Source: Peltaster fructicola | Taxonomy: Eukaryota > Ascomycota > Dothideomycetes | DNA: 64,000 bases | NCBI GenBank assembly: GCA_001592805.2 | Contig: CP051139.1 | Span: forward strand, 868,001-932,000 | Direction of reading: 5' to 3' | Shown: positions 2,807-52,011 of the stretch, one piece after another | How the letters are laid out: each line of letters begins with the position of its first letter | How positions within the stretch are numbered: the first letter of the stretch is position 1 | Translations under genes and position numbers: made by a program | Notes under the pieces: generated by a model | Seen by the model: the letters and a program-made list of their open reading frames with translations, nothing else | Database searches by the model: none | What the model was told of the DNA's origin: nothing

Positions 2807-3020
2807 TCCTCGCACATCAGACTCTTTCCATAGTCTTGATGTGCTTGAGCTAGGTTCCCAGCAGATACCCTGATACACGATGGTCATCTCCTCTCTTGGA
2901 GATGTATCAGCTTGTGCTCCACCAACATCGTCTCGGCTTCCAGATGAATGATGAACAAAGTCTACTGACGAGCACAGACTGAAGGTACCATTGTGGACTG
3001 GCAGATCGCTGGGTTTGTGT

Positions 3021-3132
3021 GTGGTCAGTACGTGGATCGTTGCGTGGTTACTGCGTGGTTGTCGTGTGGTTAGTACGTGGATCGTTGCGTGGTTGTTGCG
3101 TGGTTACTATGTGGTTTGTTATGTGGTTTGTG
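3021..3132. repeat. GT-rich minisatellite, two 45-bp copies plus a partial copy
   Basis: Two near-identical 45-bp units lie head to tail at 3021-3065 and 3066-3110, followed by a degenerate partial unit to about 3132. Each unit is itself built of about 12-bp blocks around GCGTGGTT. It lies between genes, and ORFs across it are low-complexity products of the repeat. Confidence 0.85.
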
Positions 3133-3884: not shown

Positions 3885-5357
3885 ATGTCGATCACCAAGC
3901 GAGGGACGGCAGCATGGCGTAAGCAGTACACTGTACCAACGCGACGTAGCTCTAACAAGAATGCAGAGGTGGAATACGCACTCCGGACGATCTTTAAGCG
4001 ATGCTTGGAGTGTTCTGACGACACACCGCCGTGCCCGCCATGCGCAAGCAATCAGATATGCTCAGTCATCGCTCGAGACTGCAACACCTGCGCTCGAAGC
4101 GATTGCGTTGCCAACCCGAACTACACTACACCTGCAGCATCTGGACCCAACATTGGCGCCATTGCTGGCGGTGTCATCGGTGGTGTGGCCCTGATCGGCA
4201 TCGTTGTCTTTCTGATCTGGTTCCTGTGGATTCGAAAGAGGAGAGCTCAGCAGGAGGCAGAGGCAGAAGAGTTGGAAGAAGATGAGATTGCACAGCAAAA
4301 GGCTGCTTTCCAGAGCATGATGCACGATGCAGCGTCGACACGGACACGGGGTTCCTTCGCGAACAGCATACTCAGCCGCGCGAGCAATGTCATCCAGATT
4401 GCTTTCATCCCAGGAGTCACAACACGAAACGGCTCATCACAGAACAGCTTGTTCGCTGCCTCTCCAGTTCCACCAATACCGGCAGCACGCGGCACTCCAC
4501 GATCTCCTCTAAGCAACGAGGATGATGCCATCTTCTTCCGACCTAAAGACATTCGTGACAGCTCCTATTCTGGTCACTCTTCAGTAGCGCTTGACAGGCG
4601 CGACACACAGTACTCATTCGACTCTCGAGCATCATCTCTTGGACACTCGGTATACCACGACAGTCTCACAATACAACCTATCCCTACACAAGCTGCACGA
4701 GGCATGGCACGAATGGTCTCAGTCAAGACATCTCCAATAACTACCCCAACCGAGAACGACAGCAGCGTACCCACATCAAGCTCTGAGTACTCGCAGTTCT
4801 CCGAGAACATACCTGCAAAGGGTAAAGCCATGCAGATATTGATGCCTGCACAGGGACAACGCGGTCCATTACAGAGCCAAGGCTCCTTTGGCAAAGCTCA
4901 CCAGATAACACTGGGCAGCAAGAACAAGGGCCGATTCCCAGTGCGCACCGCCGTCGATGTAGCCGGCGCCTCCGAGGGCAACGCTCGACATGTGCCAATG
5001 GTCTCTTCACCACTACGAGACGCTAACAACGATACCGACGAAGACGAGGAAGAGGAGCATGCACGAGCTAGAAAGTCGTTGCTGAAGACATCACCACGGC
5101 CTGATCAGCTTGGATTCGATAGCCCGTTCTCAGATGAGGTGGAAACTCCAGTACTATCCGCTACCAAGACACACCCATACGCATCCCTGTCCAGCACAGT
5201 TGGCGCACTGAACGTGCCAAAGCGTGGCAAGAGCATGGGCGGCTTATCAGCAGTGATTGAAGAGGCTACACGGAGAGCCAGCGACTCACCCGACTACGAT
5301 GGACTTGGCAACAAGCGTGAGTCTAGTCCATTCAGTGATAGCAACAAGATCGACTAG
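3885..5357 (+). CDS. OPY2: OPY2-like single-pass membrane anchor (HOG/MAPK scaffold)
   Basis: Reading from ATG 3885 (context CTTAACCATGT; the frame is open a little further upstream but without an ATG) gives 490 residues. A Cys-rich extracellular segment at about 40-76 has the Opy2 pattern CLEC..CPPC..ICSV..CNTC..C. A Gly/Val/Ile-rich transmembrane helix follows at about 89-115, ending in basic IRKRR, and then a long, Ser-rich, probably disordered cytosolic tail. In yeast, Opy2 holds the Ste50/Ste11 kinase module at the membrane in osmostress signalling; the same role is inferred here. A possible 48-nt intron (3919-3966, GTAAGC..CTAAC..CAG) keeps the frame and would remove 16 residues ahead of the Cys-rich part, so the N-terminus is uncertain. 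Confidence 0.75.
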   Translation: MSITKRGTAAWRKQYTVPTRRSSNKNAEVEYALRTIFKRCLECSDDTPPCPPCASNQICSVIARDCNTCARSDCVANPNYTTPAASGPNIGAIAGGVIGGVALIGIVVFLIWFLWIRKRRAQQEAEAEELEEDEIAQQKAAFQSMMHDAASTRTRGSFANSILSRASNVIQIAFIPGVTTRNGSSQNSLFAASPVPPIPAARGTPRSPLSNEDDAIFFRPKDIRDSSYSGHSSVALDRRDTQYSFDSRASSLGHSVYHDSLTIQPIPTQAARGMARMVSVKTSPITTPTENDSSVPTSSSEYSQFSENIPAKGKAMQILMPAQGQRGPLQSQGSFGKAHQITLGSKNKGRFPVRTAVDVAGASEGNARHVPMVSSPLRDANNDTDEDEEEEHARARKSLLKTSPRPDQLGFDSPFSDEVETPVLSATKTHPYASLSSTVGALNVPKRGKSMGGLSAVIEEATRRASDSPDYDGLGNKRESSPFSDSNKID

Positions 5358-5632
5358 AAGTCGCTCGCTACAATGTCGTTCCACCGTACCGTCTTATTAC
5401 AGCAACGGAGTTACCAGGCGTCAATGATATTGGGTTTAGTTGGGCGTCAGGGCAAGCTGATGGCGCACAAGGCGTTACGAGGACTGATGATCGAAAGACA
5501 TCGCAAGGAGGAACCTTTCAATCTGGCTTTGATTTCACTGCCCTGGAGTAAGCTCCACGACTATCAGCAATGTCTGTTCTACGATAACGATCTCACATAT
5601 GTATCGTATATTAGGGCATTATCTATTCTCTC

Positions 5633-6745
5633 TCACACTTCGTTCTCAGCTTCGACAAGTGCTGTCTCCATGATCACTCCCTCCGACTTGATTCTGAAAT
5701 AGAAGCCATCTTGTGTGGCTCGTAGCGTTTGCACATCTCGGATGTTCAATGGAAATTCGTCCACAAAGCATTCGAAACGTGCCATCGCCACAATCTTCAT
5801 CTGGTCGGCATGTTCTCGTAGCATTTCCTCTGGATTGAGGCCTGACGGGATCTTCTTCACGGGTACTCGCCGTACAATGAATCGCAGCGTTGGCAGCTGT
5901 GCTAGAGGCGGCGATAGGCAAGGTCGTAGCACCCGTGGTAGCTCACCAGCCATCGACCTTGGCAATCGACCAATGTGTCTCGAAGTCATGACGACGGGGC
6001 ACTGCAGTGCCTTGCTAGCTGATTCTATAACGTTCCGCAAGTCTGCGTAGGTGACAGCTCGCTCGGTGGGACCTTCTGGTGTGGCGGAAGACTGCATACT
6101 AGCTGTGAAGGCAGCAGTCTCCTCCTCAGCTCTGGTTTGCCAATAGAAGGCTGAGGCAGAGTCAATAGCAATGAGTGACATACATCGGTCCAGCGAGTTG
6201 TGGTTGTGACGGAGGAAGTATGTCGGCAGCTCGGCAAGTATCTCGACCAGATCGCGCATACTCTGAGGTTTGTAGATGTAGACATGGTACAGAGCTGATC
6301 GAATGATAGTGTTGATTGTCGTCTTGTCTTTGTTCGAGGCCCAGGTACTGAGCCGGTGCCTGATCTGCTGGGCCAACCTTGCAACGGAGAAATTGCCGTC
6401 TGCGTCGACGACTACCACACAGCCGCTCCTGCCTCCGTATTGTGTAGGTAGCACAGCAAGAGAGGCCAGAAGATATAACAGATGTGTCTTTCCACCACCT
6501 GCACCGATCGATGTGAACTCAAGTACAGGCGGTGCCTTGCTTCTGGCGGTGACATGTTGTAAAATATCATCGATTTGAGCACAGTTGAACCATCTTGGCG
6601 AGCTCTCGCGGCTCAGCTTGAGGCTATTGAGTAGCTACCATAAGACATTAGTGACATGCTCAAGAGGTGATGTCTTGGTGCTGACCTCATCGAAGCCAAT
6701 GACCTCCACATCAGCCAGCAATCGTCTGCCGAATGCTTCTGCCAT
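5633..6745 (-). CDS. XRCC2: XRCC2-like RAD51 paralog (recombinational repair)
   Basis: Exons are 6745-6686 and 6634-5633, joined across a 51-nt intron (GTCAGC..CTAAT..TAG), giving 353 residues. Walker A is GAGGGKT at 64-70. The Walker B segment is LIAIDSASAFYW, and the FYW after the acidic residue is characteristic of XRCC2 among RAD51 paralogs. XRCC2 works with other RAD51 paralogs to assist RAD51 filaments in homologous recombination. The protein is longer than human XRCC2 (280 residues), mainly because of its C-terminal part. Start codon: the only upstream ATG that joins in frame through a good intron. It is divergent from SOM1 with 116 bp between start codons. Confidence 0.8.
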
Positions 6746-6861
6746 CTTGCAACATCCCCATTGTGAGGTGTCTTAGTCGTACCTCGTCGGTGGATCACGA
6801 TGCTTTGACGGAGGTTGTGAGTGTTGAAGGAAGCAAAGAGCTAAACATCGCGAAGCGCAAG

Positions 6862-7116
6862 ATGTCGCCGCCTGTGGAGTCATTCCATCCTCGCCGGCTA
6901 GAGGATCATGTGCAGTACAAGACGGATGGCCGCATACGAAAGCCACAAGTGGAACTGCAGAAGTGTCAGCTGCAGGAGATGATCCAATTCAGCTGTGAAT
7001 TGGATGGGCCTCGCAACAGCGTGAAAAGTAAAGTCATATGCGAGCCTGTGCTGCGATTATTCAGAAGGTTTGTTGTTCGCAGCGCTCACCACGAAGACTC
7101 GTTGACAGAAGATTAG
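6862..7116 (+). CDS. SOM1: Som1-like mitochondrial inner-membrane peptidase subunit
   Basis: This small gene of 84 residues starts at MSPPVESFHPRRL. The core pattern HPRRL, then a CX9C pair (CQLQEMIQFSC), then VICEPVLRLFRR is that of the fungal Som1 family. Yeast Som1 associates with the Imp1/Imp2 inner-membrane protease that trims proteins sorted to the intermembrane space. The reading frame extends upstream to another ATG at 6733, but that part overlaps the first exon of the divergent XRCC2-like gene and shows no family similarity, so I start at 6862. It is tail-to-tail with TAF8, with 116 bp between stops. Confidence 0.7.
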   Translation: MSPPVESFHPRRLEDHVQYKTDGRIRKPQVELQKCQLQEMIQFSCELDGPRNSVKSKVICEPVLRLFRRFVVRSAHHEDSLTED

Positions 7117-7232
7117 ATGCGCCGACGGACTCAGCGTAGAGGTCACAAGCTACGAGGGCATACACGATCCTCAGAGTGTATCAGAGAGGCAGTAGTGCTT
7201 GCCGACAGCAGCATGGATGCATACATCTAAGC

Positions 7233-8144
7233 TCAGAATGCAAGGCCTTGCCTCTTTCCACCACGCCAGTATGAAGCAGAAGAGTTGACCAGCAATCCCT
7301 CTCTGATCTCCAGAGCTTCGACCTTTTCTTGCCTAGCACTCACAGCCTCGTGGTCGACCGCTCCATCAAGCCCTCCAATATCATGCAGCAAATCACCAAA
7401 GATATCCTCATTCTTTGGACGTACAGTACCAACAGTACGTTGCTTTCCTGGTCCAGACAGTGCCAGATCGTTCCGTCTCCTCGCCTCAGCCTTCACTGCA
7501 CCAGCCTTAGCAGCAGCAGCTAGCTTTCGTAGCGCTTGCTCGGCTAGCATGCCCTCCTCCGTGGCCTTCTCGCGCATCTTCCGTGAGTCCTTCTCTCGCG
7601 TAGGCCACACCTCTGTCGCTTTCCAGGTGTGTTGAGCCGGCAAGAGTGGGAAATGGCTTGGGATCCATCGTGGAGGCCTCGACTCGATCAGTGGCTTAAG
7701 CAGTCGTGAGAAGTCGGGAACTGGTTCAGGTGCTGGTTCAGGAAGTGGTATCGTAGGATATGAGATATTTTCTGGCAGCTCAATGTCGAGCTGTGGCCGC
7801 AGCACTCGAGGTGCACGCGTGTTTTCTGTTCTCGAAAGTGCCATGCTGAAGTCCTGTGCCGTGGGTTGTGTCCTTCGCTGTCCTTGCATCGATATCCGTA
7901 CTTCTGTCGCAAACCGCAGCATATACTCTTCTGCTTGGGCGCGAAACATCTCCAGCGCTGTAGATCTCACACTATCAAAGCCGGCAAGCGCACATGCTGC
8001 TGAGATGCTGCGCATGAGTTGCACGCCTGTGAACTCAGGTTGTTGTGGTGCCGGCTCGGTATGAGCTGGTTGTGCTTGCACGTGCCCGACTACACGCTTC
8101 TTGTACGGCCGCGAATCATCGGTGCCTTCGTGAGAGCGCTTCAT
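7233..8144 (-). CDS. TAF8: TFIID subunit TAF8
   Basis: One exon, 303 residues from ATG 8144; the frame runs further upstream but without similarity. A histone-fold region lies at about 40-115 (LMRSISAACALAGFDSVRS...). The TAF8 C-terminal motif comes next, with W-I-P-S-H-F-P-L-L-P and QHTWKATEVW at about 185-210. An Ala/Lys-rich helix follows. TAF8 pairs with TAF10 through the histone fold inside TFIID for RNA polymerase II initiation. No intron is needed. Confidence 0.8.
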   Translation of the reverse strand: MKRSHEGTDDSRPYKKRVVGHVQAQPAHTEPAPQQPEFTGVQLMRSISAACALAGFDSVRSTALEMFRAQAEEYMLRFATEVRISMQGQRRTQPTAQDFSMALSRTENTRAPRVLRPQLDIELPENISYPTIPLPEPAPEPVPDFSRLLKPLIESRPPRWIPSHFPLLPAQHTWKATEVWPTREKDSRKMREKATEEGMLAEQALRKLAAAAKAGAVKAEARRRNDLALSGPGKQRTVGTVRPKNEDIFGDLLHDIGGLDGAVDHEAVSARQEKVEALEIREGLLVNSSASYWRGGKRQGLAF

Positions 8145-8835
8145 ATTGGCGATAGAGCGAATTGAAAGAATGTGCGTCGAGAGGTGTTGACAGCGAATCG
8201 CGATTGTGATGTACGAGCGTGAATGATGCTGGGAGTCCTCAGGCTCACACCTGCGGCTCAAGCTTGTTCGCCGATCTCAAAGCACCTTCTCTTTGTCGCA
8301 AACACACTCTCTCGGTCTATGCACGACAGCATTGCACTTTCTTACCACTTCTCGAACAATGCTGATCAACGAAGCCTTGCGACTACGCTTGCCACGTTCT
8401 GCGTGCGACAGCAGTCACCACAACACGTGAGCAGGTTACGCTCGTGATCAGTCGAAGCTGTGCAATATCTGGCCATTAAGTCAATCTACACACCACTCTT
8501 CACCGCAGCCCTAACAACTTGCACAAGGTAATGTTCAACAAGGTGGTATATCAAGACGATATCTAGGTTTCGAGAAGGAGAGTCTCTTGTCCTTCACCTC
8601 ACCACCTGATTTCTTCGACGCGAGTCAAGGTATTACGCAGTGCAGGCTGCTAGCACTCGTCTAAGCTTGCCTTGCACATTTCATTCTCGTCCAGTCATTC
8701 CTCTCTTCCTTTAACCGGCTCTTATCGCACACCGAGGATACCTCGCTTTGCGGCGGTATAAGCTCGCACACATTCCCATACATCCAGCAGTCAGATCTGT
8801 GGCGTCTACCATTACTGGGCCAGCGCCACAGGTTC
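8145..8835. other. divergent intergenic region (TAF8 / Aro80-type regulator)
   Basis: I see no gene. It should hold both promoters; the right part is C/T-rich, as expected for a leader. Confidence 0.5.
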
Positions 8836-45405: not shown

Positions 45406-48400
45406 ATGGAGAAGCTGTGGAAAGTGTTTTTCACGACCATCGCCTTCTCCAGCCTGGGAGGGTGTCAAAGAAGTTGCCAAGAGATAGGCTCGTCGAGCTT
45501 GCTCTACGAGCAGGCAGTCTCAATCAACACGGAGGTTCTCACAAATACAACGTTCAATCCTATACCTCAGGTCGCCTTGACCGTCACAGACGCCCCGACG
45601 AGCATTGACACGATCACTACACTCACATGGACCTCGACTGTGCCGGTTCAGCATGCTGATACACCTCTGCCATCGACCTTTGTGCTGATCAGCGGACAAC
45701 AAGGCAAGCAGAAACGACAATCTGGCACCACCTACATCGCACCAGGTGGTACTTTGACGCAAGACTGTGCATACGCTGTTCAGTACTCGATCGTGAACGG
45801 TCAGCTCATAGCCAACGCTTCTGATGGCACGATATACTACTACTCGACCTCACCGGGAGTAGCATATTCGCCATTCGTAGCGACCACTGTCCCTGGATCA
45901 ATCTCTACAACATTTAACATTACCGAGGCCTTTATATTAACATGGAGGAACACACAGTTCTATAACGGCGAGGCGTCATTCTGTTCCGTGGATGGCTCAA
46001 TCTACGCTGTATTTCAGCAAGGTGAAGAACCTGACGGTTGTTTCTTTGCTCCACTCAGTCCTGCCTACGGTCCTGGTTGCGTCTTATGGGGAAATTCAGG
46101 AGCTAGACAGACAAACGCAGATATGTCCTTTGACAAAGTGCTGCTGTTATAGCTGACATGTCTAGCACAGCCGCCATCTGCCGGCCCATCTGGACCTTCT
46201 GGGCCGTCTGGCCCGATTGATAAGTATTCTCAAACATAAAGAGCGAAGTCTTATGCTGATCCTGTTCCACGTCCGCAAGGACTAACAGGGCCCACGGGAC
46301 CAGTTGGAGCAGACGGCATATCTGGTGCTGTTGGAGCGACTGGTAAGTCTCCCATCTCCCAACAATGCATGTACTGATCGTTGCAGGACCGATTGATAAG
46401 TACACCCGCGTTCATTGTTGTACAGGCGCTGACATTTGAATACGCCCACAAGGTGTGGTTGGACCGACAGGTAGGTTGTGACGTATGTGAATGCTCCTCC
46501 AGCTGACAACTACAGGACCGACAGATAAGTCAACGTCTTCTTGTCTCTGTGACTTTACACTGACAGCATGTACGCCCGACCGGACTCCAAGGTCCAACTG
46601 TAAGTACAGGTGCGAGCTTGATGGTTCTTGACTGATCATGCATAGGGGCCTACAGATAAGTCCTCTCCTACAGTCTCTCGCAGAGTATCCTACTGACTGA
46701 TCCAAACGCCTCCAAGGCCAGAGTGGTGCTGTGGGCGCTACAGGAGTCCAGGGTCCTCAAGATGAGTCGAATCATATGTCCAATGCGCAAGGAAGCTAAC
46801 TGTATGCCAAGCCTGCAAGGTGACCAGGGTATCCAGGGCATCAGTGGCGCTGTAGGAGCGACTGGCTCACCCGGTGCTCAAGATATGTCAAATTTTGTTC
46901 AAGATAGGCTGCGGCTAACTTCTCGATACGTCCACAAGGTATTCAAGGCCTCAGTGGCGCTGTAGGAGCAAGCGGAGCACAGGGTCTGCAGGGCATTCAA
47001 GGGTCTGTTGGGCCTACAGGACCACAAGGTCTGAGCGGTGCTGTAGGAGCGACTGGTCCACAAGGCATTCAAGGTCTGAGCGGTGCTGTAGGAGCAACTG
47101 GTCTGCAGGGTATTCAAGGTCTGAGTGGTGCTGTAGGAGCAACTGGTCCGCAAGGCACTCAAGGTGCTAGTGGTCCTACAGGTCCTACAGGAGTCACTGG
47201 ACCTCAGGGTATTCAAGGTGTTGTTGGTCCTACTGGCCCTACAGGAGCAATTGGCCCGCAGGGTGACCAAGGTGTTGTTGGTCCTACTGGCCCTACAGGA
47301 GCAACTGGCCTGCAGGGTATCCAAGGTGTCGTTGGTCCTACCGGCCCTACAGGAGTCATTGGACCACAGGGTGTCCAAGGTGCCCAAGGTTTGAGCGGTG
47401 CTATAGGAGCAACTGGCCCGCAAGGTACTCAAGGTGCTGTTGGTCCTACTGGCCCTACAGGAGCCACCGGTGTTCAAGGCATTCAGGGTACCCAAGGCCA
47501 GACTGGTCCCACAGGTGCTACTGGTGTACAGGGCCCACAAGGTCTAATTGGATCCCAAGGTCAGCAGGGCCCGACAGGGCCTACAGGACCCACAGGAGCC
47601 CAAGGAATTCAAGGTACACAAGGTCTTAGTGGTGCAGTAGGAGCGACTGGACCGCAGGGGAGTCAGGGTAATCAAGGCATACAAGGTCCAACCGGTGCTG
47701 TAGGGCCAACTGGACCTCAAGGCATTCAAGGACTGCAAGGTGCACAAGGTCTCAGCGGTGCTATAGGAGCGACTGGTGCCACTGGCGCCCAAGGTATACA
47801 AGGCAATCTAGGACCTACTGGACCGACAGGACCAATCGGTCTGCAAGGCATTCAAGGTGTTCAAGGTCAAACTGGCGCTACTGGAGCAACAGGTCCTCAA
47901 GGTCAGCAAGGTATTCAAGGTGCGCAAGGTTCGACTGGACCGCAAGGTGTACAAGGCCTCCAAGATGTGTATCTCTCCAGATTGTACGGTCAACTTCGCT
48001 GACGATTCAGAACGCCTGTTAGGCCCGACTGGACCAACAGTGAGTAACCTGTAGTATCACTTTACTCCTATTCTAACATTGCATAGGGCCCAATCGATAG
48101 GTCGACCCGAACTCTATCCTGAGACTCAACTGACACTTCTTGCACGCCCACAGGGAATCCAAGGTACACAAGGTGTCAACGGCGCCACCGGTGTCTCTGG
48201 ACATGTGGGTACAATTGTAAGTAGCTGAGGTGATATAACCACGTCGCAGTTCTGATCGTCCTAGGGTCCAACTGATAAGTATATCAATCTACGAGGAACT
48301 ATCACTAACGTCTCGAGCACGACCGACTGGAGCTACTGGTACCATAGATATGTGCTCCGAGCAACAATCCCAGGCTAGACTAACTTCGATCAAGCCCTAC

Positions 48401-49115
48401 AGGACCTTCTGGACCACAGGGTGAGGAGACAGTCTTAGCTGATAGAGCAAACACTGATTGCTTATAGGCGCAACAGATTGAGTCTCTCGTCGTGACATCA
48501 CTAGTTTGTAAGCTGACAAGTACCAAGCGCCACAGGAGTCACAGGACCAACAGATTGAGTTACCCATAACGATCTTATGCACTGCAACTGACACGAAGCA
48601 AGCGCCACAGGAGCTACTGGCGCGACAGATAAGTCCTTCCGTAGGAGGGAGCGATCTAGCTGACATGTAGAACGTCCTACAGGATCCACTGGACCGAGCG
48701 GTACACCAGGGAACACCTTCAACTACTTTGGTTGCTACGTGAGTACCGGTAACTCGCAAGGCACCACTGGCAACTCCTTGAATCCGTTTCAAGCCAGCTA
48801 CTCAACCTATGGAGCAAGCTCATGTAGCACTACATGTCGGGGAGGCAGCTACAACTACTTTGGAGTGGTCAACAACAACTCTGGCGGCGTTGATTGCTAT
48901 TGCGGTAACAATATCGCACTGATTTCTACGTAAGTCTCCGACCCCACCATCTGATCTTCGCTGATCGATCCAGTACGCTAGTGGTCGGTGTGGCGCTCGG
49001 ATTGACAGGAGCCAACAATTGTCCGGCATGTGTGGGTGGTGCATTGTCTGGTGGAACTTCTGGTGCATGTGGTACCTACCAACAAAGTATGGCGATCTAT
49101 GCCCGAGGATTCTAG
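45406..49115 (+). CDS. secreted collagen-like protein with WSC-type C-terminus; 14 AT-initiated introns
   Basis: My 22-exon model gives 903 residues with no stop. Exons: 45406-46120, 46169-46219, 46271-46342, 46387-46395, 46444-46470, 46516-46524, 46574-46599, 46646-46655, 46708-46761, 46811-46882, 46930-47964, 48014-48039, 48087-48096, 48146-48216, 48265-48274, 48321-48347, 48394-48420, 48468-48476, 48527-48553, 48602-48628, 48674-48929, 48974-49115. It has a signal-like start ([19 protein letters not shown]), a DUF7908-like extracellular domain to about 238, Gly-X-Y repeats (GPQG, GATG, GIQG) to about 785, then an eight-Cys WSC-like domain ending MAIYARGF. It is probably a wall or surface protein. 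Only seven introns are GT-AG. All joins are inferred from frame, branch site and repeat phase; I have no transcript. Confidence 0.75.
46121..48673 (+). other. set of 14 AT-AC / AT-AA spliceosomal introns
   Basis: AT-AC: 46121-46168, 46220-46270, 46396-46443, 46525-46573, 46656-46707, 46883-46929, 47965-48013, 48097-48145, 48275-48320, 48629-48673. AT-AA: 46762-46810, 48348-48393, 48477-48526, 48554-48601. Donors are ATAAGT, ATATGT, ATGAGT, ATGTGT, ATAGGT and ATTGAG, which are normal U2 donors with G1 changed to A. Branch sites CTRAC/CTGAT lie about 9-11 nt before the acceptor, and lengths are 45-52 nt. They lack the U12 motifs ATATCCTT and TTCCTTAAC. Interspersed GT-AG introns: 46343-46386, 46471-46515, 46600-46645, 48040-48086, 48217-48264, 48421-48467. 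Confidence 0.75.
46930..47964 (+). repeat. long collagen-repeat exon (Gly-X-Y)
   Basis: This 1035-nt exon is one uninterrupted run of 9-nt-periodic Gly-X-Y codons, with recurrent units such as GPQG, GATG and GLSGA. Near-identical 30-60-bp blocks recur, so copy number probably varies. Confidence 0.9.
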
Positions 49116-49335
49116 GAGTGGGAAGGCGTGAGCAAAGAATATAGAAGCACTGAGGTGTATACAATGTACTGTAACATAGAAATGCTTTGATCGTGTTGTG
49201 GTCGAAATTGATACACAGACATACGACGCGTTGACAAAAGTCTTGTCCACTATATGTTACCATTGACCTCAATATTGTTTGTGTCCTCTACTCACATCCG
49301 GCGACTGACAAGCTTCTGCATGCATCTCAACAAAC

Positions 49336-50172
49336 ATGAACTGGACGCTCGCAGCCCAAATACCTGCGTTGCTCATCTTCGCATGGCTGCTCACGACGTT
49401 CATGATAGCCAGCTTCCCAGTCCTGCGTGGCAAGCGAATATGCCTCCTAATTGCTCACCCTGACGATGAAGCTATGTTCTTTGCTCCCACGATACTCGCT
49501 CTGAGCCGACCGATGCTGAACAACAAGATCTTTATCCTATGTCTGAGTAGTGGCGACGCTGACGGTCTTGGTCATGTCAGGAAACAGGAGCTTGTAGCTA
49601 GTGCACTGCAGCTCGGCATCACGAGCAAAGAGCATGTTGTCATCATCGAAGACGAACGCTTTCCAGATTCTATGAGCAAGACCTGGGATGCCGAAGCAGT
49701 CTCAGGCATCTTGACACACTATTTTGCACCAAAATCGGCCGTCGCACCAACATCTGCTGCTCCTCCAGTCATGATCGATGCACTGCTCACATTTGACGCT
49801 GGCGGAGTCTCGGGCCATCTGAACCACAGGTCACTCTACCATGGAGCACGAGAATTCTTGCGATCCTTGATGCAGCGACATCAGGGCTGGGATTGTCCAG
49901 TCAAGTTGTATACTCTGACGTCGACGAATGTGGTGCGGAAGTACAGCAGCATTGTGGATTGTATAGCTACGATCTCGCTCTCGATCTTTGCCAGAAAGCA
50001 AAAGGGAGAGTTTCCGACGCCCCTTCTAGCGGTCAGTGGTCCTGGAGGCATCCGCAAGGCTCAGCAAGCAATGACGACCGCTCATAAGAGCCAGATGCGA
50101 TGGTTTCGATGGGGTTGGATTGGCGTGAGCAGATATATGGTTATCAATGATCTGGTCAAGGTCAAGCTCTAG
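49336..50172 (+). CDS. GPI12: GPI12/PIG-L N-acetylglucosaminyl-PI de-N-acetylase
   Basis: One exon, 278 residues. An N-terminal membrane helix (about 8-28) is followed by the zinc-site motif AHPDDE at 40-45. Further family motifs are CLSSGDADGLGHVRKQEL and the second metal motif GGVSGHLNH near 160. The enzyme removes the acetyl group from GlcNAc-PI, the second step of GPI-anchor synthesis, on the ER membrane. Length is normal for fungi. PER1, acting late in the same pathway, lies 14 kb away. Confidence 0.93.
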   Translation: MNWTLAAQIPALLIFAWLLTTFMIASFPVLRGKRICLLIAHPDDEAMFFAPTILALSRPMLNNKIFILCLSSGDADGLGHVRKQELVASALQLGITSKEHVVIIEDERFPDSMSKTWDAEAVSGILTHYFAPKSAVAPTSAAPPVMIDALLTFDAGGVSGHLNHRSLYHGAREFLRSLMQRHQGWDCPVKLYTLTSTNVVRKYSSIVDCIATISLSIFARKQKGEFPTPLLAVSGPGGIRKAQQAMTTAHKSQMRWFRWGWIGVSRYMVINDLVKVKL

Positions 50173-50232: not shown

Positions 50233-50813
50233 TCACAGAGTTTGCAGCTTCGAGGCTCTGTCAACAGCTATCTCACACATGGCCTATATGGTCGTCAGCA
50301 CGCACAACAGGCAGATTCCGTCTCACCCACGCTTATCGCAGCAGCTCGCTCCTGGACAATATCACCAGCAGCAATACGCTGACGCATGTCGTCCATGATC
50401 ACAGGCCGACCTCGACCATTGACGAAGACAACGTAACGTAGACCTGGAAAACGCTGCTCATACTCCTCGTTCAGGAGTCGCAGCTGCTCGGCCTCCTCAG
50501 CACTACCATGCAATTGAGCTTGTTCTGCTTGGCTCTGTGCACTATCTACCTTCTTGGCTCCCAATCGTGGATGCGAGCTCAAGATATCCTCGAGCCATTG
50601 TTTGTCTGATGCCGACGACGATCTCGACAGATCTGTCAGTTGTACACCAACGGACGAGATAAGATCGACATATGAGTCGAAAGTGTTCTCCCGTAGCAAC
50701 GATACCGAAAGGGTGTGCAGCTGCGTGCTTGGCTCGAATAGCAAGTCCAAGATCTTCGCACGAGCCGGAGTGTCAAGTGAGGGTACGTCTGCGATTGGAG
50801 GTAGGGTCGCCAT
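50233..50813 (-). CDS. OHCU decarboxylase (urate degradation to allantoin)
   Basis: Exons 50813-50331 and 50283-50233 (47-nt intron) give 177 residues. Motifs are SHPRLG with the catalytic His near 81, and LNEEYEQRFPGLRYVVFVNG near 115-135. The small last exon restores the family ending AMCEIAVDRASKLQTL; reading through the intron would instead end in CCAC. It decarboxylates 2-oxo-4-hydroxy-4-carboxy-5-ureidoimidazoline to S-allantoin, the last step after urate oxidase. It is convergent with GPI12. Confidence 0.9.
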
Positions 50814-52011
50814 GATGCGTGCTTGACAACAAAAAGAGCACGTCTATCGACGAGAAGCAGTCGAACGTCATGCCGCCGGCAGCCACATCTCTGCCTTGCA
50901 TGCTTTCTAAATAAGCTTCAAGCCATCAGGCTGATCCCGACAAGTGCTCGCGTCAGAGCACAAATTGAAGCCGCCAGATCGGGTCAGAGTATGCTTTGTG
51001 ACGAGTCATGCTGGTTAGTTTCCTGATCGTGTCCAAGGCTGATGGTTTGACTGAGTACGTCTTTCTAGGCCAAAGAACGATATCTGACGGTCATGGCCTA
51101 ATCAACACATCCTCCTGGGCATCATTGGATCGGCAACAATATCTTCCGGCTCATGCAGCAACAAGGATGACGCTGATCAGCACTGATCGATGGCCCAGAA
51201 GCAACATGAGATTAGCACCTAACGCTGAATGGCCTTGACCGTTCTGCAGCTGTACAGATCCGCAGCGGCAACCGTGAGGTCACTGACATCCTGGACGATA
51301 TACAAGCATAAAGCTGGCCGGTAGTATCATAATACCTCGCACTGTTTCAGCCAACTCGAGTGTCGCACGAATATCACACTGTCGACAATACGCACTCTCT
51401 GCTAGATCATTCGTCGAGATCTGTTCCGGAAAACCATCTAGAGAGGAGCCGGGAGATTGCGCCACGTCTTTCTAATTTAGCTTTTTGAGGGACGAGCAGT
51501 GGTGGACATGCCCCGATACACTGTACGTCTACGCACGACACTGCGAGAAGAGCAGCCAGCATCCTCGACCATGACGGGCAGCCACAGTTACCTGTAAATT
51601 GCATTCAGTGCATGTGTTACATATAACGACTATTCTGATGATTAGCTCTCTTTCTCTTATCCTCGTCAGTGCTGCGAGACTTTGTACCTTTTTCCCTTTC
51701 CCTCTCCTACAAACTTCTGGTCGCCGCCTGGATCACCGTGACACTAAACTACATCCTTCATTTGTACATTTGCTTGTGATCCTGTGGTTTCTTTCTTGGG
51801 CGCCTCTTCTCTCACTTCCAACATCGACTACTCACGCCTGCGACGTGCGAACTCTCTCCTCTCCTCTTGGCCGGCCTGGGAGGTGATGTTACTACGGCGC
51901 CATGTTTCATGAGCTTTCTGTCGCCCATTAACTCGGATCACTCTCCCCTGATCGCGGCTCGCTGGTCGAACCAATAGCGGTGCGCCGCATCCACCACTCT
52001 CTAATAACAAG
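50814..52011. other. intergenic region with a pyrimidine-rich leader
   Basis: No supported gene. From about 51640 on, the plus strand is rich in C and T, as in promoters and leaders of highly expressed fungal genes. Confidence 0.5.

Follow-up and report, generated by a model that had tools for sequence, protein, structure and literature searches.

Reciprocal suppression between an A at the first base of an intron and a C at its last base (A1 and C-1) was reportedly described in yeast by Parker and Siliciano in 1993 and by Chanfreau in 1994. Here we describe a family of fungal collagen-like genes in which end pairs of this kind are predicted to recur many times within a single gene. The starting point is a 64-kb stretch of the genome of Peltaster fructicola, a fungus of apple surfaces, which we refer to as the window (contig C1, positions 868001–932000; guanine plus cytosine (GC) content approximately 52%). 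The window gene, at 45406–49115 of that stretch, is interrupted by 14 predicted introns with AT as the first two bases and AC or AA as the last two (AT introns), mixed with ordinary GT-AG introns.

In yeast, A.C is summarized as the only substitute for the normal end pair, with A.A supporting splicing weakly (PMC8283771). U2-type AT-AC introns (AT-AC II), of which intron 21 of human SCN4A is an example, are described as removed by the major spliceosome and as trapped by the end-pair rule, and an origin from U12-type introns has been proposed for the sodium-channel AT-AC introns (PMC2831892). Single U2-type AT-AC introns are already known. In fungi, AT-AC introns make up 0.019% of annotated introns; the survey concerned is annotation-based, and its main text contains neither of the terms "gene famil" and "AT-AA" (PMC7072748). 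A term search of a paper on the annotation of Zymoseptoria likewise did not return AT-AC (PMC4502367). The published genome of P. fructicola is given as 18.99 Mb in 5 chromosomes, with a GC content of 51.95% and a median intron length of 50 (PMC7181583); the genome surveyed here comprises 18,987,130 bases in 5 contigs.

Reading frames and intron ends

Removal of 21 introns from the window gene (10 AT-AC, 4 AT-AA and 7 GT-AG, of 44–52 nucleotides (nt)) leaves a single open frame of 903 amino acids (aa), with the stop codon ending at 49115. When introns were retained one at a time, the frame stayed open in 0/21 cases. These results agree exactly with the frame and the intron counts of an initial sequence-only reading of the window, whose range of intron sizes, 45–52 nt, was correct at the upper limit and one nucleotide too high at the lower. 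The protein has Pfam matches to DUF7908, Collagen (Gly-X-Y) and WSC. The same reading described the exons as multiples of 9 nt, which holds for the collagen exons when they are summed; three phase-0 GT introns divide a unit (26+10, 26+10 and 71+10), and the exon at 46169–46219 is 51 nt long. Its description of the AT donors as perfect except for A1 does not hold for two of the 14, the donors at 48477 and 48554 being ATTGAGT and so not the standard donor with A1.

A DUF7908 search of the genome identified four loci: the window gene, L014, L015 and L016. The strongest case of AT introns is L015, not the window gene. L015 (C1 near 3.677 Mb; locus positions 4794–8620) has 47 introns within 3,827 bases, comprising 31 AT-AC, 4 AT-AA and 12 GT-AG (35 AT plus 12 GT), and their removal gives 173/173 perfect Gly-X-Y triplets. 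In L014 (C2 near 0.378 Mb) there is a single AT-AC intron as well as a long exon coding for collagen. The DUF7908-like region of L016 lies within a frame of 846 aa, in which no collagen was apparent by inspection. The scope of the sequence-only reading, which described a single gene, was too narrow: three genes of this genome carry AT introns, and there are traces of them in relatives. For the counts below, the introns of these three genes were pooled (50 AT and 18 GT, 68 in all, with WSC introns left out).

The models used to place introns score a reading frame by its stops and by Gly in every third position, and an intron by T at +2, by G at +5 followed by A, C or T at +6, and by a CTRAY branch site close to its end. 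In the end-blind model, the first base and the last two bases were left free. For L015 this gave 44 introns, with donors 35 AT and 9 GT and acceptors 29 AC, 8 AG, 4 AA and 3 other; 41/44 of the end pairs were AT-AC, AT-AA or GT-AG, and one stop was left. Such pairs were obtained for 15/19 introns of the window, and for 41/44 (L015) and 16/19 (window) when a motif-bonus variant was used. The final model, in which pairs other than these three were penalized and the +5 rule was relaxed, placed 19 introns in the collagen part of the window gene (179/179 Gly, 0 stops) and 46 in L015 (30 AT-AC, 5 AT-AA and 11 GT-AG; 173/173 Gly, 0 stops). The L015 intron at 4973–5018 (AT-AA) was then replaced by hand with a GT-AG intron at 4966–5011, and one junction intron each was added by hand to L015 and the window gene.

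Restricted and decoy models, all requiring G at +5, were compared by the stops they leave in the collagen part of the window gene and in L015, respectively. The numbers were 15 and 32 with GT/GC-AG only, 8 and 22 with AT-AG added, 14 and 25 with a CT-AC/AA decoy, and 9 and 38 with a TT-AC/AA decoy. Adding AT-AC alone, or AT-AC/AA, left 1 and 2, which remain because the requirement for G at +5 shuts out ATTGAGT and GTACAC donors. Overlooked GT-AG sites and AT-AG ends, the two other splicing patterns named in the sequence-only reading, both leave many stops; the canonical GT-AG-only reading was rejected on these counts, as were the AT-AG, CT-AC/AA and TT-AC/AA schemes. Among the schemes tried, the frame is kept only by AT-AC/AA together with GT-AG.

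The AT introns have G at -1 in 50/50, G at +5 in 48/50, T at +6 in 44/50 and a CTRAY branch site in 50/50; the GT introns have G at -1 in 13/18. The last base of the AT introns is C in 42/50 and A in 8/50, and the most frequent donor hexamers are ATAAGT (17), ATATGT (13) and ATGAGT (7), followed by eight rarer kinds. Against a shared consensus the median score is 15.2 for AT introns versus 9.3 for GT introns, on a matrix built mostly from AT introns. Under the end-pair rule, AG is not a usable end for an intron that begins with A, so AT introns are predicted to bypass AG. An AG lies between branch site and intron end in 21/50 AT introns versus 0/18 GT introns (Fisher p = 0.0006), counts that depend on the modelled ends, although the model held no first-AG rule. 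Good CAG sites are among those bypassed, as in CATGCAGTAC after CTGAC and CTTGCAGTAA after CTAAC. The pairing of first and last bases put forward in the sequence-only reading is thus supported, both because AT goes with AC/AA and GT with AG, and because only AT introns bypass AG.

The AT type was also sought using a weight-matrix scan that uses no reading frame and ignores the two bases at each intron end, with a threshold recalling 92% of known AT introns. The scan gave 11 AT-AC/AA candidates in the collagen part of the window gene and 33 in L015, where the decoys gave 0 and 0 (CT), 0 and 0 (TT), 2 and 1 (GT-AC/AA) and 5 and 9 (AT-AG), the last because AG often sits immediately before AC. In 210,120 bases of other sequence (approximately 1.1% of the genome) there was no excess of AT-AC/AA over decoys (1, versus 4 GT-AC/AA, 1 CT and 1 TT); GT-AG gave 14 there, versus 1 AT-AG, 2 CT-AG and 0 TT-AG. 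Since these genes also supplied the training set for the matrix, the scan of other sequence tests the spread of AT introns and not their existence. The scan for such introns that the sequence-only reading had proposed, made here on this sample, gives a strong signal in the window and L015 and no excess outside the family in the sequence sampled, and a few AT introns may occur elsewhere in the genome. Five CAGATAAGTAT sites were considered as introns and rejected, no branch site plus AC being seen on inspection by eye.

Relatives and array structure

Searches with the DUF7908 part gave 33 proteins, and then the best 120 of 126 matches (8000 candidates scored). Many of the homologues listed are unspliced gene calls that seem to continue into intron 1. 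P0004, the entry for the window itself, has ...NADMSFDK... at its end, G|ATATGTCC being read as D-M-S. Among the matches listed, 15/119 others show D-K or D-E, as read-through of G|ATAAGT or G|ATGAGT would give (P0005, P0006, P0007, P0010, P0011, P0015, P0038, P0042, P0043, P0053, P0056, P0057, P0061, P0072 and P0074), either at the corresponding junction or in place of an expected Gly codon. The check on orthologues suggested in the sequence-only reading, made here on protein strings, thus points to AT donors in these 15; other homologues have GT-type tails (e.g. P0009, P0014 and P0070), and in many no donor is readable. After D-K or D-E comes S, C or Y, or the sequence ends, as is required if +6 is T, the only contrary case seen by eye being D-E-P in P0087. 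This agreement is partly by construction, because the regular expression used, drawn up after viewing the tails, accepts a D-pair only if S/Y/C/F/L/W follows it or the sequence stops there. It has 17 matches, namely the 15, P0004 (the window itself) and P0034 (annotated, probably mis-modelled and not counted); P0118 and P0087 lie outside its matches.

The aligned parts of P0005, P0006 and P0007 have identities of 67%, 66% and 64% to that of the window, so the putative AT donor at the DUF7908–collagen junction would have outlasted that divergence. Given the candidate AT donors at the same junction in 15 listed homologues, the AT-intron trait looks old. Back-reading of the protein by hand would place the intron end of P0011, P0038 and P0042 at AC|G, after a branch site compatible with CTGAC, CTGAT or CTAAC, and for P0118 it suggests a GT intron followed by a tiny exon (GPT) and then an AT donor. 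P0087, an annotated protein of Zymoseptoria tritici ST99CH_1E4, appears to hold AT introns translated as protein: it contains YADMAHARLALLEAR, compatible with GCTGACATGGCNCAC|GCCCGACTGG, where the His codon permits an AC or AT end.

Two side observations concern these proteins. P0087 has a near-repeated 27-residue stretch, and P0034 (Oleoguttula mirabilis), whose gene model is doubtful, has GVSGIADES, compatible with another AT donor. A scan of viral contigs found no relative.

The tree was built from 108 DUF7908 rows (106/120 listed proteins plus two paralogues) and 115 columns, 14 proteins having been dropped that were without a KRQ-type motif or too short. Eighteen rows were labelled AT, and the label "other" takes in rows whose first intron is not visible. 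The AT label requires 9 changes versus 17.0 for shuffled labels (0/500 as low), and well-supported branches force only 2. AT rows are spread over several groups; P0053 falls with P0041 of Cladosporium fusiforme (Shimodaira–Hasegawa-like approximate likelihood ratio test (SH-aLRT) 94, not starred). Resolution of the tree is poor, with 52/100 inner branches open, and gain and loss are indistinguishable on it.

The collagen arrays show two recurring units. L015 contains nine 54-nt exons, and the starts of five successive AT introns (5961 to 6368) are spaced 101 to 104 nt apart. The second unit consists of a GT-AG intron, a 9–10-nt exon and an AT intron: among the 19 exons of at most 10 nt, 16 have GT-AG before and AT after, three have AT on both sides and none has GT on both. 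No two GT introns of the 68-intron set adjoin, and the back-reading of P0118 matches the same order. Under the end-pair rule a GT start could not finish at AC/AA, nor an AT start at AG, so cross-pairing over the tiny exon would be blocked. We suggest tentatively that the two end types might act as separate keys, orthogonal ends forcing the inclusion of 9–10-nt exons in a repetitive transcript. The introns do not have the form of stwintrons or twintrons, in which one intron is nested in another: in the model, which provides for side-by-side introns only, they are separated by coding exons of at least 9 nt.

The features of the window gene are listed in the table. Downstream of it are a PIG-L deacetylase gene (+ strand, 49309–50172) and an OHCU decarboxylase gene (- strand, 50295–50843), and a short GTGG-rich tandem array with units of 11, 34 and 45 nt lies at 3015–3128 of the window.

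Table. Predicted exons and introns of the collagen-like gene, in window positions
Feature	Position	Strand	Basis
Whole gene: DUF7908, collagen (Gly-X-Y) and WSC; 903 aa, 21 introns	45406..49115	+	open frame; Pfam
Exon 1: N-terminus and DUF7908 domain	45406..46120	+	open frame; Pfam
AT-AC intron at DUF7908–collagen junction; AT donor inferred here also in close relatives P0005, P0006 and P0007	46121..46168	+	
AT-AC intron	46220..46270	+	frame model
GT-AG intron, then 9-nt exon 46387–46395	46343..46386	+	frame model
AT-AC intron	46396..46443	+	frame model
GT-AG intron, then 9-nt exon 46516–46524	46471..46515	+	frame model
AT-AC intron	46525..46573	+	frame model
GT-AG intron, then 10-nt exon 46646–46655	46600..46645	+	frame model
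AT-AC intron	46656..46707	+	frame model
AT-AA intron	46762..46810	+	frame model
AT-AC intron	46883..46929	+	frame model
Long unbroken collagen exon, 1035 nt	46930..47964	+	Pfam; frame model
AT-AC intron	47965..48013	+	frame model
GT-AG intron, then 10-nt exon 48087–48096	48040..48086	+	frame model
AT-AC intron	48097..48145	+	frame model
GT-AG intron, then 10-nt exon 48265–48274	48217..48264	+	frame model
AT-AC intron	48275..48320	+	frame model
AT-AA intron	48348..48393	+	frame model
GT-AG intron, then 9-nt exon 48468–48476	48421..48467	+	frame model
AT-AA intron, donor ATTGAGT	48477..48526	+	frame model
AT-AA intron, donor ATTGAGT	48554..48601	+	frame model
AT-AC intron	48629..48673	+	frame model
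Exon: end of collagen and start of WSC domain	48674..48929	+	Pfam; open frame
GT-AG intron within WSC part	48930..48973	+	open frame

Proposed mechanism and alternatives

We consider it very probable, on the sequence features described above, that the 14 segments of the window gene are U2-type introns in which A1 is combined with C-1 (or A-1), and that they were multiplied with duplicated exon–intron units. Recognition would proceed via the intact G at -1, positions +3 to +6 and the CTRAY branch site. The second step of splicing would then work through an A1/C-1 pair, and less well through A1/A-1, in place of G1/G-1, such that AG is ignored and AC or AA is used. It is likely that the AT type had one origin or a small number of them. 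A half-changed intron could have been survivable here, in that collagen exons sum to Gly-X-Y units and a skipped unit stays in frame; a second change would then fix AT-AC, and tandem duplication of exon–intron units would multiply it. Return to GT-AG needs two simultaneous changes, so the AT type would be trapped.

Several observations weigh against this proposal. The end-blind model mis-parsed 4/19 window introns, including both ATTGAGT introns, which came out as TT-CA and TT-AG (TT-GC and TT-AG in the motif-bonus variant). A.A is reported to be a weak pair (PMC8283771), yet 8/50 introns need it, and the motif-bonus variant gave AT-AG for one L015 intron read as AT-AA (8013–8060). U1 and U5 were not found in the genome by Rfam models, with controls also silent, which leaves the pairing partners unseen. 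As regards duplication, the nine 54-nt exons share on average 53% of bases (ungapped, range 35–83%), and the interiors of the introns preceding them score 0.549 versus 0.539 when shuffled (gapped alignment); over all 686 same-gene AT intron pairs the mean z is 0.36, with 8 pairs above 3. For this reason the duplication step is one that we infer: the spread by exon–intron duplication proposed in the sequence-only reading fits the regular units of L015 but finds no echo in the intron interiors, and little in the exons. If the units are duplicates, they must be old, with ends and branch site kept while interiors drifted, which would imply selection on AT and AC/AA themselves; many AT introns may instead be of separate origin. 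Introner-like elements of fungi are near-identical copies, and copies of that kind were rejected here on the same values for interiors and pairs.

It is unlikely that the eight AT-AA introns truly use AAG one base downstream as AT-AG introns, leaving only the AT-AC ones non-canonical. A G does follow all 8 AA ends, so AAG is on offer, and such use would agree with the reported weakness of A.A (PMC8283771) and with the AT-AG parse of one of these introns. An end at AAG would shift the reading by one base and disrupt Gly-X-Y, however, and the end-blind model ends 4/44 L015 introns at AA (one with a wrong donor), while good CAG or TAG sites are passed over by other AT introns.

We also regard it as improbable that genuine AT introns are removed with the help of a dedicated variant component, such as a variant of U1, U5 or Prp8, instead of by the ordinary major spliceosome. 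The lack of AT excess outside the family in the 210 kb sampled would suit such a component, as would the failure of Rfam models to find U1 and U5 and the altered branch-binding sequence of one of two U2 genes. Against it, GT-AG and AT introns alternate within one transcript, A.C works with ordinary machinery (PMC8283771), and the one U6 found carries the usual ACAGAGA. With the altered U2, a preference for CTGAC would be expected in introns of every kind, and AT and GT introns alike often have CTGAN (38/50 and 10/18, respectively).

A U1 variant able to pair with A1 was considered and rejected, the 11-mer ATACTTAYCTG having 13 matches with no Sm-type site within 260 nt and no U1 family match; these matches are probably other-strand donors or chance. 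The two U2 genes are described here in their own right. The gene at C1:958184–958376 (L035 1501–1693; 121.4 bits) has AATTGCAGTATC in place of the AAGUGUAGUAUC of the Rfam consensus, and its GCAGUA would pair fully with CUGAC branch sites. The second, at approximately C1:3075431–3075610 (L036 1501–1760, minus strand; 76.2 bits), seemingly has a 54-nt GT-AG intron of mRNA type inside the branch-binding sequence, removal of which would give AAGTGTAGTATCTGTTC, identical to the Rfam consensus.

That the segments are unspliced, belonging to decayed or unexpressed genes or arising from sequence errors, seems very improbable, given that 50 AT segments across three genes fit one unbroken Gly-X-Y frame per gene with 0 stops, and that AT donors are suggested at the same junction in relatives. 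Minor (U12-type) introns, of which AT-AC ends are typical, can be dismissed almost entirely: their donor consensus is ATATCCTT, unlike the donors here, which are mostly AT(A/G)(A/T)GT with G at +5 (ATATCC in none of 50), the branch site is CTRAY throughout, and U12 and U6atac have no Rfam match in the genome, the last a weak negative as no control gave a match.

Comparison with known systems

In the open-licence literature searched (titles and abstract starts, among the matches listed), we found nothing on clustered U2-type AT-AC introns or on the introns of this gene family. Nor did those matches show a family-wide pattern, repeated use of AT-AA ends, as many as 35 AT introns in one gene, or alternation with GT-AG introns around 9–10-nt exons. 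The sequence-only reading had held that a cluster of this size was undescribed, and no counterpart has come to light among those matches, which does not prove absence.

If the AT segments are indeed U2-type introns, they provide a natural and much-repeated test of the fit between first and last bases in the second step, including the A/A pair that is weak in the laboratory. End pairing would then be heritable as a lasting type of intron, perhaps without a minor spliceosome. Gene finders limited to GT-AG could misread a whole gene family, P0087 of Z. tritici being an apparent example.

Animal fibrillar collagen genes have short Gly-X-Y exons, as found here, where nine in L015 are of 54 nt; the genes described here differ in encoding a fungal DUF7908/WSC protein and in having 9–10-nt exons and AT introns. 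With fungal introner-like elements they share the presence of many introns of similar size in one lineage, except that the intron interiors here look unrelated. The yeast laboratory double mutant A1/C-1, as summarized in PMC8283771, has the same end pair; unlike in that mutant, the pair here is natural, recurs dozens of times and is mixed with GT-AG introns in one transcript. AT-AC II introns of the SCN4A type, with A1 and C-1 ends, share A1 and a U2-type donor with G at +5 with the introns described here, 42/50 of which also have C-1, and removal by the major spliceosome would presumably be common to both. For that type a U12 origin has been proposed (PMC2831892), whereas no U12 or U6atac RNA was found here (weak negatives). 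The genes described here differ further from the SCN4A type in number and in ends, with 35 AT introns in one gene and 14 in another, 8/50 of them ending in AA.

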